DNA of 64,000 nucleotides from an uncultured Chlorobiaceae bacterium (GCA_903915955.1 CAIWUU010000174.1:30392-94391); one strand, 5' to 3'. Positions 49,076-57,150 are shown, counted from the first letter of the stretch. Made by a program: numbers and translations. The notes: generated by a model from the letters alone, not told the origin.

Positions 49076-49546
49076 ATGTTGATGCCTTTATCAGACGCTG
49101 ATTTTACATCAATTCTTGAAGACAAGTCTAAAAAAATTGTTGGTGATATTGAGTGGCTTGAAGATGAAGATCACTCTCCTGCCCTTGAGTTCCGAGCTGA
49201 AGTAAAATCAGAAAAAGGGTGGCCTCTTTTTATCAAAGGTAGCTATAATTCTTTGGCCATGGCGTTAACCTACGCCTTAATCTTGCAGACTGATGGCCGG
49301 ATTTATGGGTTGGACTTGGGAAAAGGACATATAAACCATAGTCCACAACGTCTCCAGGTCGGTGAAAAGCACAAGCACCGATGGACAGAACAGTATCGCG
49401 ACAAGAACGCCTATATTCCTGAAGATATCACTGCTCCGGTTTCCGACCCATTGGCAGTGTGGAGTCAGTTTTGCACAGAATCTAACATTGAGCATGATGG
49501 AGAGATGAAACCGTTACCATCAACGCAGCAGGAGCTCTTTTTATGA
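49076..49546 (+). CDS. Uncharacterised protein, partner of downstream DUF1828-like gene
   Basis: 156 aa ORF whose stop overlaps the next ATG (ATGA), operon-like. Confidence 0.7.
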   Translation: MLMPLSDADFTSILEDKSKKIVGDIEWLEDEDHSPALEFRAEVKSEKGWPLFIKGSYNSLAMALTYALILQTDGRIYGLDLGKGHINHSPQRLQVGEKHKHRWTEQYRDKNAYIPEDITAPVSDPLAVWSQFCTESNIEHDGEMKPLPSTQQELFL

Positions 49547-50328
49547 CCGATCTAACGATATGTGACAGCTTAAAATCCGGTATTAGTGAGTTATTTACCT
49601 GTACTGAACATGGAGATTTTCAGCGAATCCGGACTCCCTTTCTTTACCCGGATGGAGACAATATTGACCTTTTCTGCAAAACCGATGGGGATACAGTCAC
49701 GATAACTGATCTTGCGGAAACGGTGCGCTGGCTCCATGCACAGTCTGCATCATCTTCCAAGCGATCAACAAAGCAGCGACAGCTTATCGAAGACACTTGC
49801 CTTACTCACGGTGTTGAGCTCTATCGGGGGATGATTCTTGGACGTTGTCGCCCGGGCGATTCATTTGCCATGGTTGTTACACGGGTTGCTCAAGCAGCCG
49901 TCAGAGTTTCTGACCTCTGGTTTACCTTTAAAACACGGACGGTCGAGTCCATCACTGATGAGGTTGCAGATTGCCTCGCTGACAAAAAGCTGCCATTTAC
50001 CCGTTTTGAAAAACTTGCAGGAAGATCTGGCCGGGCATGGGCTATTGATTTTCACGTAAGATCTCCATTTCGCAGTTCCCTTGTTTCTGTCTTAAAAACA
50101 TCGAACCGTTCTTCAGCTCGACCAATTGTTGAGCATACCGTTGCTGCATGGTATGATCTGAATCATTTAGCCGCTGGGCCGGAAGGATTAAATTTTATAT
50201 CACTGTTTGACGACACATCTGATGTCTGGAGTGATGAAGACTTCAAGCTGGTAGAGCCATTGTCAATAATTTCGCGTTGGTCACGACCGGATGAGTTTGT
50301 CAATATTTTATCTGAGGTGGCGAGCTGA
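49543..50328 (+). CDS. DUF1828/DUF1829-like protein
   Basis: Segment DNIDLFCKTDGDTVTITDLAETVRWLHAQ typical of DUF1828; C-terminal half DUF1829-like. Confidence 0.7.
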   Translation: MTDLTICDSLKSGISELFTCTEHGDFQRIRTPFLYPDGDNIDLFCKTDGDTVTITDLAETVRWLHAQSASSSKRSTKQRQLIEDTCLTHGVELYRGMILGRCRPGDSFAMVVTRVAQAAVRVSDLWFTFKTRTVESITDEVADCLADKKLPFTRFEKLAGRSGRAWAIDFHVRSPFRSSLVSVLKTSNRSSARPIVEHTVAAWYDLNHLAAGPEGLNFISLFDDTSDVWSDEDFKLVEPLSIISRWSRPDEFVNILSEVAS

Positions 50329-50643: not shown

Positions 50644-50844
50644 CTATAGCAAGCCATTTTTTTTCAGCTCTTCAACAACCTGTTCGTGAGAGATTGTCGG
50701 CTCATCCTTGCGTTCAGCAACAGAGGCCAAATCTTCAAGATCTTCAAGTAACTCATAAAAATCGTTTAACGGGAGAATCACCGATTTCTTGACCCCGTTT
50801 CTATCGGTCACATATTCCGCATGCATGTCCTCAACGTTTAACAT
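50644..50844 (-). CDS. Putative RelB/Phd-like antitoxin (orphan)
   Basis: 66 aa, MLNVEDMHAEYVTDRNGVKKSVILPLNDFYELLEDLEDLASVAERKDEP, immediately upstream of the RelE relic. Confidence 0.7.
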   Translation of the reverse strand: MLNVEDMHAEYVTDRNGVKKSVILPLNDFYELLEDLEDLASVAERKDEPTISHEQVVEELKKNGLL

Positions 50845-51230: not shown

Positions 51231-52016
51231 TTACAGAAGATTTGGTGCTACGTTTTTCACCCATGATTCATGTAAATCCGCCCACTTTGCAGAATGGGAA
51301 CCGAGTTTTGCCGCCTGACGAGGATGAACAAGTGGCAAAAGTTGCATATCACGGCCGGCAATTCGAATATCATGGAGCAGATCATACTGGTCAAATGAAT
51401 CACCGTAGTCACTGAGTTTTGACTTCGATCCGAAATACTTTGTGAACCATTGCAAAGGCTGATCACCAAGTGTGATAAATATATCTGGAGACGCTTCAGA
51501 TACTTCTCCAGCAATTTCTGCCCTGCGCTGCTCATTCGCAAGTGTTGGGGGAACCGGTGGCCAATAATAGTGCGGTAAATTCAGTTTTTCTTTTTGAACA
51601 TCGTATTTGGAAGCCAGCGCTGCTTTCTGCCGGTCATTCATGCAACTATAAGGCACCAGATCGCAAAGCCAGACATCAGAGCGCTTCAGTTGTAATGGGT
51701 CAAGAAACATCTTGTCGAGAGCTTTACCTGAAGGGCCATTTAAATTTTTTCCAGGCGGTAAAAGTTTTCCGGCACCAGGAGTCACTGGAATCTTTGCAAT
51801 GATATCACACTCTCCTTCACCGCGCCAAAATATTTCAGGTTCTGAGGCAACTGCAAGAGCTCTCACGATTGGCCGACCATCTTCACCAACCCAGCGAGCA
51901 TGAACAGCACTGGCATAAACGCCAAGAATAAAAACCCGCTTTGGATTGCGATCTGATTGTGCCAACGACACAATCGGTTGTCCAAATGGAAACGTCTTGA
52001 TTTGTTGCATAATCAC
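51231..52016 (-). CDS. Uracil-DNA glycosylase superfamily-like protein
   Basis: RVFILGVYASAVHARW (motif-1-like), SPDIFITLGDQPLQWFTKYFG, LLPLVHPRQAAKLGSHSAKWADLHESW (motif-2-like HP). Confidence 0.5.
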   Translation of the reverse strand: MIMQQIKTFPFGQPIVSLAQSDRNPKRVFILGVYASAVHARWVGEDGRPIVRALAVASEPEIFWRGEGECDIIAKIPVTPGAGKLLPPGKNLNGPSGKALDKMFLDPLQLKRSDVWLCDLVPYSCMNDRQKAALASKYDVQKEKLNLPHYYWPPVPPTLANEQRRAEIAGEVSEASPDIFITLGDQPLQWFTKYFGSKSKLSDYGDSFDQYDLLHDIRIAGRDMQLLPLVHPRQAAKLGSHSAKWADLHESWVKNVAPNLL

Positions 52017-52055
52017 CTTATAGCTTTTATGTTATTGTACTGATATCTGTTATAA

Positions 52056-52874
52056 TCAATAGTTGCGACCGCCAATGCGACCAATGAGAATGTTTCGATC
52101 AGCCTCATCATTGCGAATGTGCATCTTTCGATGACAGTTTGGACACAATGCAACAACATTATCAATCGAGTCAACTCCACCGTGTGACAACCACTCTACA
52201 TGATGTGATTCCAAATAAGGCTCATTATTTACCGAGAGAAACGGAGCTTCCTCTTTGCATAGATCGCACACTCCATTAGCAAGTTTTTTTGCTGATGCTG
52301 CAACGTAACTATTTCTTATAAATGCAGTTCCGGTTAACGTCACCTTACGAGCGACAGCATCTGACATTGCTGCCCGTCTAAAGAGTTCACTTTCCGGGAG
52401 GGTAGATGCTCGCCTTTCATTTTCAGCAAGCCATGATACTAAAGTTTCTCTATCAGCATTCTCAGGAGCCTCTGACATGGCTTGTGGCACAGGCGTTTCA
52501 ATTGCGAGTCTTGTCGTCCCGGGTTTTCTGGCATAGTGATAGACAGCCTTTTTAACTATTTCAAAATCATCAACTCGCCAAAATGGTTCAGGATGTGTTT
52601 TTCCTCGATGATTTTCACCGGCACACTCTGCTCCACATAAATCTCGCATGAAAGAATACATCTCAATAGCTGTTCCCGCCAGAGCGATCTCATACTTATT
52701 AAGTCTCGTAAAAGGCTTAACGTATATTCTACCACTACCACCGGTAAAAGACATATTTTTTGTAATTTCAGATTGCTGCTCAAATTCGATGCGCACAAAA
52801 CCTGAATCAGACTCAGAATTTACTTCTGCCTCAAGAGCTTTCAGTTGCTTTTTCACTTGATCTACTTGCATCAA
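52056..52874 (-). CDS. HNH endonuclease
   Basis: CDLCKEEAPF...YLESHHVEWLSHGGVDSIDNVVALCPNCHRKMH, canonical HNH with two CxxC pairs. Confidence 0.88.
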   Translation of the reverse strand: MMQVDQVKKQLKALEAEVNSESDSGFVRIEFEQQSEITKNMSFTGGSGRIYVKPFTRLNKYEIALAGTAIEMYSFMRDLCGAECAGENHRGKTHPEPFWRVDDFEIVKKAVYHYARKPGTTRLAIETPVPQAMSEAPENADRETLVSWLAENERRASTLPESELFRRAAMSDAVARKVTLTGTAFIRNSYVAASAKKLANGVCDLCKEEAPFLSVNNEPYLESHHVEWLSHGGVDSIDNVVALCPNCHRKMHIRNDEADRNILIGRIGGRNY

Positions 52875-52941
52875 TATCCTTTGTCAAATATTTCTGAAGC
52901 GTAACAGAATCCTCTTCAAGCAGCACCGCGCATAATAATAT

Positions 52942-55900
52942 TCACTCTCCAGTCACCCATTTGGAGCCTGTGCGTTTCATCTCCTGCCACGCCTCGATAT
53001 GACGTTTCAATTCAGGATGCTTGCATCCATCAGCAATCAGCGCTTCCCGTGCAGCGGGATCAAACGGAATTGCCCTCGCGCCGAGGCATTCGTGCCAGAC
53101 TTTGGCAATCAATGACTCTGGTTTACGCTCCACTTGTTTTGTATGAAATTCAGCTATAAAAATAAATGGAACATTCGCTATAGCATCACACTGTGCCTCA
53201 ATTTTTTCCAGTAAAGGCTGTAACGGAAAAGTTTGTTCAATATCACTTGTATTACCTTCAAATCGATAGCGACCAGTAACAGCGTCTTTTTTATTCCAAA
53301 AAACACCATTCTGTTTGCGTAAATCAAGTTCATAAGATGATGATAAAAGAACATTAGATGCTTGAACCTCATGCCCCAAAGCAGAAAATCCACAACGAGG
53401 AAAGTTATTAAACCAAGTTGGCACCAATTGTTCCGCCATATTCATATCCTCATCATCGAAAATCTTAATAAGACATGACCAATTAGTGCAAGCTGTTTTA
53501 GTAAAATCTCCTAACTCTTTGTTAATAAATACAGAATCAGCAGAAATATTTTTTAGCTCGTGAATACTTATAACACCATAAACTAAGCATTTCTCCGTTT
53601 TGAGAAGTGAGTATAACCACGGATCTGCAGGAACGAATACACATGATGTTGCACAACATCTCAACAATCCTTCTGAGAAGAAAAAAGAATCCAAATTCGA
53701 TGTATATGGAAAAGAAGGTTCAATCAATACATCAGGTATTTCCAATTTTTGACTAAGTGGATGTCTTTTAATATTTGAAATTGCATCGCCACAAGATGTT
53801 GGCCCACAAACAAGCGCGTGTGCGATGAAAGAGAGTATAACGTCGCGAGTTAACTTATCAATGAACGGAAGTGTTTGCTGTGATAGTTCATACCGCTGTA
53901 TGGTAAGCGGCAATTGAGCTGTCTTATCTTTTATAGCCACACAAGGTACTTTTAATGAGATATCTTTTTCAGGCCATTCAAAAAGAGGTTTTTGCCATGA
54001 TAAACCACCTCTATCTCTTATTGACCGAAATAATAATGATTGTGGCTCAAGTATCACTATTCCATTGCATGAAAGTGGGGGGGCAAATCCAAATGTCCAA
54101 TATACCTCATCGAATCCAGCAAGAGGAAGCACAAACCAATCTGCAGCATCTTGACTCTCAATTGGAAGAACATATCGTTGATTTAACCACATAGTCTTTG
54201 AATTCCTAACAACATGCCTTGCTACTTTAGGGCAATTCCAGCAAAACCAATCTGTAACATCTGCATTAACAGAAGTTTCTTTACACCCAAGATTTATAGC
54301 AGTTTCACTGCTTATCTCCACTTCCACCGTTGTCCCTATGAGCAAGTTATCAACTCGCTGTATTTCGATAAGCTGACTGTCAGCCGACGCAACAATCATA
54401 TATCCTTCGCTCTTGTCAACAGTGGCATGTCGCGTCCACAAGCGAAATGAATGACCGAGAAGAAAAACGGCAAAAGCCCCAATTCCGAATCGTCCGGCAC
54501 GCGCCACTCGCGGCTTACCATCGTCATCAACAAACTCTTTTATCCACTCCTCACTGTTGCGGAACGATGCACCAGCACGCAAAAAGTAGTTCTTGATCGT
54601 ATCACTTGTCATACCAATGCCTCTATCCCGAACACGGAGAAACCATGTGCCGTTTTCCCGTTCGATAAACTCAATCAGGACATCACTATCTTGTTCAGGA
54701 AGATCAAGCGATTCGAGAGCAACGTCATGAGCTTTAGACCAAGCATCCAATTCGCACACTGCATCAACGGCATTTTGCATCAACTCACGCACTCCCACAC
54801 TCGGATTTTTTCCATACAGTGGTTCAACCAACAAGGTGAGCAGGTTCGGGTCTACACGAAATCCCGTCCGCTCCGGTACGTATGGCAGATTTTCACGGAA
54901 AGCAGTGTCATGCAAATTCGAGTAAACCCGCCGAATGGCAAGGTTAAGCAGATCAAGTCCAAGGTCGCTCCTTGTGCCATAAACTTCATCCAAAACGGCG
55001 GTTGAATGATCCATCTCGGCTTGCATATCTTTCAAAAGCTCCTGAAGCTGGAGATATAACGACAGGCAGATATCTGCGCTGACCGTAACCATCTTGCCAC
55101 GAGGATCAGTCGCCGGACCAATGTGCAGCACGGCAAGGTGCTTCTGCCATTCCTGCACTGAAAAAGGACTCTGGGGATTCCTGAGTTGGAGAAGAACAGC
55201 CGGAGCACGCTGTCGGTCAATTTGAAAGTAATCGGCAACGCGCAGCAGTGCCATGGGATAGAGTACTGCGGTGCCCATTGGTCTCGGCGTTCCGGGATAT
55301 TTCCAGTCCAGACAGGATTTGCACGGTCGAAGATTCATGCCGTGCGATCGTGCCGTGAGGCCGATCAAATCCGCCAAACGACTCAAATGGTGTCCTTTTT
55401 CTATACCCATTGCCGGAAACTGATGCTCACCAGAGCCAACTGGCAACCCTGGAAAACCATAGATTGCTATTTCATGAGCAAGCCGCGCATGGTGGCGACG
55501 GATAAACTCACCAATGATCAGGTAATGGTTACCCACGATTTCATCTGGAAACTGATCGAATTTCCAGACACGCGCCTCCTTCTCACCAATAATTTTAGCT
55601 AAATCACGTTCGCTGAATCGCTTTGCCTCACGAACATACTCCTCCCACAACTCAGGCCAAAGGCGATCGGCAGCATGGTCTTCGTGAGCATCTTTGAACC
55701 ACGAGAGTGGCTGAAATCGAGAATCAGGGCTGACAAGTTCCCTGAATCCATCCTCACGCAAGTGCATTGCAATGTCATGCAAAAGGGTAGCACCGATAAT
55801 CACTGCGGCATCGGCATCGCAGAGCAAACGAGGAATGGTGTCATTTTTACTCTTTTCCAAAACCGCCTTGGGCACCAGCTCTCCTTCGAATTGCAACACA

Positions 55901-56064
55901 CGGTTGACGTGATCAATACCGTGATCAGTGTAATCGGGAAAGAACGGGAGTTTATTGTCCGAAAGTATATTTCCAATCTGGTCAGCAAGTGCATGTACAG
56001 GTGCCTGAAGATCGCTCCCTTCCAGTAACAGCTTCAGCAATTTTGGAAATTCAATTTTAGCCAT
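52942..56064 (-). CDS. HD-domain / HSP90-like (GHKL) ATPase fusion protein, 1040 aa
   Basis: HD: DHGIDHVNRV and ATLLHDIAMH; GHKL N-box GVRELMQNAVDAV, G1 VRDRGIGMTSDTIKNYF, G2 RAGRFGIGAFAVFLLG. Confidence 0.85.
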   Translation of the reverse strand: MAKIEFPKLLKLLLEGSDLQAPVHALADQIGNILSDNKLPFFPDYTDHGIDHVNRVLQFEGELVPKAVLEKSKNDTIPRLLCDADAAVIIGATLLHDIAMHLREDGFRELVSPDSRFQPLSWFKDAHEDHAADRLWPELWEEYVREAKRFSERDLAKIIGEKEARVWKFDQFPDEIVGNHYLIIGEFIRRHHARLAHEIAIYGFPGLPVGSGEHQFPAMGIEKGHHLSRLADLIGLTARSHGMNLRPCKSCLDWKYPGTPRPMGTAVLYPMALLRVADYFQIDRQRAPAVLLQLRNPQSPFSVQEWQKHLAVLHIGPATDPRGKMVTVSADICLSLYLQLQELLKDMQAEMDHSTAVLDEVYGTRSDLGLDLLNLAIRRVYSNLHDTAFRENLPYVPERTGFRVDPNLLTLLVEPLYGKNPSVGVRELMQNAVDAVCELDAWSKAHDVALESLDLPEQDSDVLIEFIERENGTWFLRVRDRGIGMTSDTIKNYFLRAGASFRNSEEWIKEFVDDDGKPRVARAGRFGIGAFAVFLLGHSFRLWTRHATVDKSEGYMIVASADSQLIEIQRVDNLLIGTTVEVEISSETAINLGCKETSVNADVTDWFCWNCPKVARHVVRNSKTMWLNQRYVLPIESQDAADWFVLPLAGFDEVYWTFGFAPPLSCNGIVILEPQSLLFRSIRDRGGLSWQKPLFEWPEKDISLKVPCVAIKDKTAQLPLTIQRYELSQQTLPFIDKLTRDVILSFIAHALVCGPTSCGDAISNIKRHPLSQKLEIPDVLIEPSFPYTSNLDSFFFSEGLLRCCATSCVFVPADPWLYSLLKTEKCLVYGVISIHELKNISADSVFINKELGDFTKTACTNWSCLIKIFDDEDMNMAEQLVPTWFNNFPRCGFSALGHEVQASNVLLSSSYELDLRKQNGVFWNKKDAVTGRYRFEGNTSDIEQTFPLQPLLEKIEAQCDAIANVPFIFIAEFHTKQVERKPESLIAKVWHECLGARAIPFDPAAREALIADGCKHPELKRHIEAWQEMKRTGSKWVTGE

Positions 56065-56076
56065 GATTTTCTTGAG

Positions 56077-56166
56077 CTAACATTTTAAATCTGAAGGAAG
56101 CAAGCGCCAACCAGCGGCTTCAAGCAGCTTGTTGATTTTGATGCGGGCAACGGTCTTTTTAGCCAT
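56077..56166 (-). pseudogene. N-terminal relic of a type I restriction enzyme R (HsdR-like) gene
   Basis: MAKKTVARIKINKLLEAAGWRLLPSDLKC*; RIKINKLLEEAGWR-type start is typical of DEAD-family HsdR proteins. Confidence 0.55.
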
Positions 56167-56519: not shown

Positions 56520-56732
56520 TTACTGCAACTCTCTGTCAATCCTCTCTTTGAGAAACATTTTTAGGAGCGATTGATACGGCACATCACGCTCGTTAGCAAG
56601 AACCTTTAAGCGGTTGAGCATAGGTTCAGGCAAACGAAGCGAAATGGTTTTCATGGTTGGCTTTAAATTGGGGAAAATTGCCGACGTGGCTTTATTCCAA
56701 TCAAGATAATCGGTTGAGTCATGCGTTGTCAT
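56520..56732 (-). CDS. Ribbon-helix-helix antitoxin (BrnA-like)
   Basis: LDWNKATSAIFPNLKPTMKTISLRLPEPMLNRLKVLANERDVPYQSLLKMFLKERIDREL. Confidence 0.8.
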   Translation of the reverse strand: MTTHDSTDYLDWNKATSAIFPNLKPTMKTISLRLPEPMLNRLKVLANERDVPYQSLLKMFLKERIDRELQ

Positions 56733-56838
56733 AAACAGCTTGCTCCTTATTATTCATACTCCGTGCTGATATCACTCGAATGGTTGCTGCACGTACAGTA
56801 AAAGCTACAAAAAGCCTACGCCCTGCATCAAACAAAAA
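56719..56838 (-). pseudogene. C-terminal remnant of a BrnT-like toxin
   Basis: LFDAGRRLFVAFTVRAATIRVISARSMNNKEQAVYDNA*, matches BrnT C-term pattern; overlaps antitoxin start as in brnTA operons; N-terminal half missing. Confidence 0.7.
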
Positions 56839-57150
56839 AATCAAAACAAAAATTTCCAGTTACCAGGCCACAGACCTCTGAGTGCCACCATCTTCAGGGG
56901 ATGTTCATGGTCATGATGCTTCACTGTCAGCCGCCCTTCCCATACTCATAGGCAAAGGCAGGATCGTTTCAATATGCGGCCATATTTCGCTTAACTCCAC
57001 AGTTAAGATTGGATTGCCTGATGCAATTCCATTGTCTTTTCCCTATCTTTTATACAAAAATGTCTAAAAAGATATTATATTAGTTCGTTATGCCCTTATT
57101 TATTCAGGCTTTTGTGATTATTTTCTTAAATAAAGTGAATTATTGACGAG

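Follow-up and report, generated by a model that had tools for sequence, protein, structure and literature searches.

A candidate two-module anti-phage cassette in Chlorobiaceae: an HD-CE/Hsp90-like ATPase with an accessory HNH-UDG gene pair

Introduction

For VcSduA, a GHKL-Shedu protein, it has been proposed that the GHKL ATPase gates a nuclease that acts against phages (PMC12137116). EcoKMcrA restricts DNA carrying 5-methylcytosine or 5-hydroxymethylcytosine by means of a separate N-terminal specificity domain (PMC7145662), and Brig1 and Brig3 are glycosylases of the uracil-DNA glycosylase (UDG) superfamily that act in defence (PMC11078745, PMC13160076). Features of these systems meet at positions 51,231 to 56,064 of a 64,000-nucleotide stretch of DNA from an uncultured Chlorobiaceae bacterium (GCA_903915955.1 CAIWUU010000174.1:30392-94391, hereafter the window), where three genes on the minus strand encode, in order, an HD-CE phosphohydrolase/Hsp90-type GHKL ATPase (gene 1), an HNH nuclease (gene 2) and a UDG-fold protein (gene 3). 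The architecture of gene 1 is that of the HD-CE (PF24391)/HATPase_c_3 proteins named in Pfam, for which there is no PADLOC model; the literature searched held no function or relevant account of HD-CE, and no description of a hypervariable region and conserved tail in HD-CE/GHKL proteins.

The locus is read here, at roughly even probability, as a cassette of two modules that is exchanged horizontally and directed against phages (or mobile elements), with the ATPase as the core and the HNH-UDG pair as an accessory. It resembles VcSduA in having a GHKL ATPase together with a nuclease, but the nuclease of VcSduA is a fused PD-(D/E)xK domain (DUF4263), whereas here an HD domain is fused and the HNH nuclease is a separate gene. 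Assignment of gene 1 to Shedu was rejected, as the DUF4263 nuclease domain was not found in it by Pfam.

The HD-CE/GHKL ATPase

Gene 1 joins an HD-CE domain (PF24391, 2e-36, residues 42-351) to a HATPase_c_3 domain (2.7e-6, residues 424-558), both above the Pfam cut-off. A relationship to Hsp90 is supported by matches to its N-domains in the PDB (phmmer 5e-8) and to NCBIfam HSP90 models (1e-15), and the Foldseek matches shown for the ATPase domain, obtained with a low-confidence model, are all Hsp90. The protein was rejected as an Hsp90 chaperone (HtpG), with scores of 52-57 bits against cut-offs of 371-455 and a match that is limited to the N-domain. The HD part matches PDB profiles weakly (E 0.016-0.35), mostly those of HD hydrolases and cyclic-nucleotide phosphodiesterases, and the AlphaFold model (predicted local distance difference test, pLDDT, 55) is poor beyond the GHKL domain and parts of the HD domain.

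The H...HD...D metal ligands of the HD superfamily are present, and H48, H52, H96, D97, H192, H241 and D278 are invariant in 12 homologues, some of which are about 20% identical (the alignment of the HD ligands was repeated with 11 sequences). In parallel, all the GHKL motifs are found, namely the N-box E-x3-N-x2-D (E427/N431/D434), G1 DxGxG (D480/G482/G484), G2 GxG (G527/G529) and G3 GT (G577/T578), and their residues are invariant in the same 12 homologues. Since the residues of both domains are kept at such low identity, the HD hydrolase and ATPase activities predicted for gene 1 are both likely to be real.

The domains that had been named from the sequence alone for the three genes (HD with a Bergerat-fold ATPase, HNH and UDG) agree with Pfam, phmmer and Foldseek. 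That the genes correspond to no named system stands as well: PADLOC 2023 gave no family at E<=1 for the ATPase or the UDG protein, and Pfam, NCBIfam and PHROGs gave no named-system match for either.

A hypervariable region between two conserved parts

The identity profile of the window ATPase against its counterparts in three other sampled loci (L033, L034 and L002) falls into three parts, with 75-100% identity over residues 1-560, mostly 17-50% over residues 561-960 (rising to 48-77% in the blocks 721-760 and 801-840, with 55-77% in one of these 40-residue blocks), and about 90% over residues 1001-1040. Nonsynonymous difference (pN) follows the same course, being 0.02-0.10 in the core and 0.24-0.46 in the variable region; synonymous difference rises there too. 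At the DNA level, conservation stops at about 54.1-54.4 kb and restarts at 53.13-53.165 kb in L002, L033 and L034; the start of the right-hand block at 53163-53165 is common to L002 and L036, the latter having kept the tail block only. A copy on a phage contig (L165) has the same profile, with 60-74% identity in the core, 29-45% in the variable region and 60% in the tail. The hypervariable stretch is thus flanked on both sides by conserved sequence, the catalytic half and the tail, a pattern consistent with residues 561-960 being a swappable recognition region.

A remnant of the ATPase tail directly adjoins a protein that is Shedu-like by eye in L037:9414-10407, an arrangement which suggests that the tail is a recurring junction.

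The HNH-UDG pair

Gene 2 carries an HNH domain (PF01844, 4e-9) of the EcoKMcrA type at its C-terminus, as it matches EcoKMcrA (6ghc, E 4e-17) over residues 181-256 only and the PADLOC model mREase_IV (3e-19) over residues 182-255. A C-terminal HNH domain with a separate N-terminal domain is also the layout of EcoKMcrA and other modification-dependent HNH endonucleases (PMC7145662), but the N-terminal domain of gene 2, unlike theirs, is without sequence match to NEco, SRA or SBD; residues 1-180 gave no Pfam or PDB match at useful E-values. The first 90 residues are more variable than the rest of the protein (46-68% versus 82-95% identity). Homologues are kept in L002 and L033, and full-length relatives are seldom met outside the trio (L137, 47-49%).

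Gene 3 scores barely over the Pfam cut-off for UDG (PF03167, 3.1e-5), while Foldseek places its medium-confidence model (pLDDT 67) with UdgX/family-4 UDG (E 4e-5). Together with the UDG fold, the invariant His-Pro of motif 3 (H231-P232) places the protein in the UDG superfamily. D119 is likewise invariant and aligns with N82 of Sulfolobus tokodaii UDG. Human UNG with Asp at the base-reading position is a cytosine glycosylase, and D119 suggests a cytosine-type base as the predicted target. A family 4 identity was rejected, as motif 1 reads GVYASAVH with no GEGPG-type sequence and the Fe-S cysteines of that family have no counterpart, Cys being absent from the invariant columns. The likeness to Brig1 and Brig3, drawn by description only, lies in a UDG-superfamily gene in a defence setting (PMC11078745, PMC13160076), and Brig1 shares with gene 3 a residue other than Asn at the base-reading position (E147 and D119, respectively; PMC11078745); the unusual motif 1 sets gene 3 apart from both.

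UDG relatives without the ATPase were found in L062-L066, several of them near restriction-modification, McrB-like AAA or Nmad3 genes, and one lies beside Nmad3. Six viral contigs also hold UDG relatives, amid genes that look phage-structural; PHROGs named neither of the two tested. In L138-L143, viral contigs of the Bacteroidales prophage type, conserved phage-like genes surround a UDG relative (39-43%) whose position varies.

Distribution and horizontal movement

The three reading frames lie exactly as proposed from the sequence alone, on one strand and separated by 67 and 39 bp, although homologues point to likelier ATG starts that give gaps of 70 and 45 bp. The operon-like layout is borne out by two other Chlorobiaceae loci, L002 and L033, in which the trio recurs in the same order and at nearly the same spacing (gaps of 67-70 and 39-45 bp overall). 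As order and spacing are kept there between different flanks and dN/dS (the ratio of nonsynonymous to synonymous divergence) is below 1 for each of the three genes, the trio is beyond chance. A terminator scan of the locus gave a signal no better than chance and promoter-like sites are only about 2 standard deviations above shuffled sequence, so that co-transcription is argued from gene spacing; no structured RNA was found in the locus.

A candidate new trio system, as the sequence-only reading had put it, is not supported in that form. That reading had named ATPase homologues without HNH or UDG-like genes as a refutation, and this applies in part: most full-length ATPase homologues stand without HNH or UDG, and the ATPase is likewise missing beside some UDG relatives; the neighbourhood is conserved in the two loci above and is not in L034, L035, L133, a Verrucomicrobiaceae contig (L001) and the phage contig L165, where the ATPase is full-length and has neither partner. 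The ATPase gene is broken by a transposase-like insertion in L002 and shortened in L136, and the locus is patchily distributed (5 of 121 relatives). The trio is therefore a recurrent assembly of an independent ATPase and an accessory HNH-UDG pair, and no obligate unit. Features that the sequence-only reading lacks are the hypervariable region, the kinship of the HNH protein to McrA, the insertion in hsdR and the homologues carried by prophages.

Between the window genome and two relatives (G048 and G254), synonymous divergence (dS) is 0.25-0.31 for HNH and UDG, far below the values for mnmA (1.05-1.25) and nifV (1.6-2.2) in the same genomes, which argues that the cassette moved horizontally. 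The ATPase is intermediate (0.66-0.70, with a pS of 0.17-0.52 in its core) owing to its variable region, and the difference between its dS and that of HNH and UDG between the same loci indicates that the parts recombine separately. In the genome G261, mnmA and nifV are also close, with modE- and mod-transporter-like genes between them and no cassette genes.

The point of entry can be read from the DNA ahead of the ATPase. In the window, L002, L033, L034 and L136, the 85 bp ahead of the ATPase start are the first part of hsdR, and the leader open reading frame of the window (MAKKTVARIKINKLLEAAGW..) matches the N terminus of an intact HsdR at L105:10005-12593, which follows PDC-M28ABC. Thus, the cassette replaced or entered hsdR. 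PDC-M28A/B/C immediately precedes the ATPase in L033 (6478-9628) and L034 (5453-8618), and in L105 (6818-9980) the partner of the same genes is HsdR/HsdM. PDC-M28 was rejected as the parent system, as M28ABC often occurs without the ATPase (L102, L105, L106) and M28C is unmatched in the window genome; the system therefore counts here as a common neighbour. Upstream, the same chromosomal genes are found in L033 and L105, which suggests a hotspot.

The main rival explanation is that two independent systems travel together uncoupled, a stand-alone HD-GHKL ATPase and an HNH-UDG pair that restricts modified DNA, in which case the ATPase would be a single-gene defence, perhaps nucleotide-depleting or cell-arresting. 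We regard this as a real if tentative possibility: it would account for the ATPase standing alone in L035, L133, L001 and the phage copy L165, for UDG relatives without the ATPase and for the differing dS of the modules, but it fits poorly with HNH followed by UDG being seen, among the sampled genomes, only downstream of the ATPase at conserved gaps, and with an 88%-identity DNA block that spans the ATPase tail, HNH and UDG.

Genomic setting

The locus lies in a chromosomal context: metH and mnmA flank it at one end, and at the other lie nifV (homocitrate synthase-like), the gene for a NifA-like activator, modE and hsdM. Defence-island flanks with restriction-modification and toxin-antitoxin relics had been noted from the sequence, and a RelB-like antitoxin, a CopG/BrnT fragment and hsdM bear this out, to which PDC-M24A/B and the hsdR remnant are added (Table 1). 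L067 also has M24B fragments. No nucleotide relatives of the locus were found in plasmids.

Table 1. Coordinates of the cassette, its parts and neighbouring features in the window
Feature	Position	Strand	Remarks
Gene 1, ATPase	52942-56064	-	1040 residues; HD-CE phosphohydrolase/Hsp90-type GHKL ATPase; core gene
HD-CE domain, residues 42-351	55012..55941	-	Pfam; metal ligands invariant
Hsp90-like GHKL ATPase domain, residues 398-588	54301..54873	-	phmmer to Hsp90/Grp94/TRAP1 N-domains
Hypervariable region, residues 561-960	53185..54384	-	Candidate recognition region; identity and pN profile
Conserved C-terminal tail, residues 967-1040	52942..53166	-	About 90% identity over residues 1001-1040 in Chlorobiaceae
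Gene 2, HNH nuclease	52056-52874	-	272 residues; listed start TTG 52874
HNH nuclease, homologue-based start	52056..52871	-	McrA-type layout, separate N-terminal domain
Gene 3, UDG-fold protein	51231-52016	-	261 residues; listed start GTG 52016
UDG-fold protein, homologue-based start	51231..52010	-	Brig-like candidate DNA glycosylase
Leader open reading frame, hsdR 5' remnant	56077..56166	-	29 codons; ends 12 nt before ATPase start
PDC-M24A/PDC-M24B candidate defence pair	49076..50328	+	PADLOC 2e-68 and 9e-102; separate neighbour, opposite strand
RelB-like antitoxin (PF18506)	50644-50844		Toxin-antitoxin relic
CopG antitoxin (PF12441, 2e-27) and C-terminal BrnT fragment	56520-56844		Toxin-antitoxin relic

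Relatives of the ATPase are also found in mobile elements. Viral contigs carry HD-CE/GHKL genes singly, some of them near an integrase (in L167 and L169), an IrrE/ImmA-type peptidase (also in L169) or a YqaJ recombinase (in L168), while in L170 the HD-CE gene follows a Mu-like tail gene; no ATPase relatives were found in annotated plasmid and phage records. The presence of such single genes and of UDG relatives inside prophage contigs would agree with the window locus being prophage counter-defence or superinfection-exclusion cargo left in the chromosome. This is quite improbable, given that no phage genes were recognised at 48.9-57.1 kb of the window and that the left boundary of the locus is the hsdR remnant.

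In two relatives of the ATPase (L041 and L045), the HD-CE region also matches the RT_UG24 (DRT) defence model over the C-terminal part of that model (6e-8 and 8e-11), and HD-CE-like domains may thus recur in defence reverse transcriptases. L046:9531-14855 holds a distinct putative operon with another combination of GHKL and HNH, encoding a protein with two GHKL domains, a 225-residue protein, a PtuB-like HNH protein and a methylase-like protein.

Proposed mechanism and its weighing

The sequences show which genes are present, that the HD and GHKL motifs are intact, that residues 561-960 are hypervariable, that the cassette spread horizontally with reshuffling of its modules, and that (pro)phage contigs carry relatives of the ATPase and of the UDG protein. 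The reading as a defence cassette draws on these points and on the constant order and spacing of the trio in three loci, the neighbouring PDC-M24AB, hsdM and toxin-antitoxin relics, the intact HsdR beside PDC-M28ABC at this site in L105, the RT_UG24 match of two relatives, the likeness of gene 2 to EcoKMcrA, the UDG relative beside Nmad3, and the precedents of Brig1, Brig3 and VcSduA. Defence activity, its trigger, its substrates and the coupling of the two modules are what we infer from these. In the proposed mechanism, region 561-960 of the core ATPase would recognise an invader-derived trigger, and ATP-driven clamping of the Hsp90-like dimer would turn on the HD phosphohydrolase, whose substrate would be a nucleotide or nucleic acid; alternatively or in addition, the ATPase would license the nuclease partner. 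The accessory HNH-UDG module, present in some loci only, would target modified phage DNA, in that the UDG-fold protein would read or excise a modified base, and cleavage would fall to the HNH protein.

A more specific version appears doubtful to us, namely ATP-gated base-excision restriction, in which the GHKL/HD switch would control a Brig-like glycosylase and a McrA-like nuclease that destroy modified phage DNA, the widespread HD-CE-GHKL ATPase forming in its own right a single-gene defence family, as yet undescribed, that would evolve new specificities by exchange of region 561-960.

The same genes could instead be taken for a DNA-repair or stress operon, an Hsp90-like chaperone/ATPase with an HD hydrolase and a UDG/HNH pair mending damaged bases, as the UDG fold and the Hsp90 similarity would allow; the patchy carriage, horizontal transfer, hypervariable region and viral-contig carriage and the loss of the canonical UDG motif 1 make this very unlikely indeed.

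Several points weigh against the cassette reading. The N-terminal domain of the HNH protein shows no recognisable modification reader, such as an NEco, SRA, EVE or SBD domain, in Pfam or the PDB, and with motif 1 of the UDG-fold protein replaced its catalysis is a prediction. The low confidence of the ATPase model (pLDDT 55) leaves residues 561-960 a candidate recognition region, and location in a defence island and carriage by prophages are associations only. In addition, most ATPase homologues lack an HNH or UDG neighbour and the modules differ in dS, so that the genes may be two adjacent, independent systems.

Implications

Should the ATPase prove to act in defence, HD-CE with GHKL, a functionally blank Pfam family found in bacteria and prophages, would gain a role, and swapping regions between its natural alleles would test directly what is sensed by an Hsp90-like immune ATPase. 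If, in turn, the HNH-UDG pair attacks modified DNA, the recent glycosylase defences represented by Brig1 and Brig3 would be extended to pairing with a dedicated nuclease.

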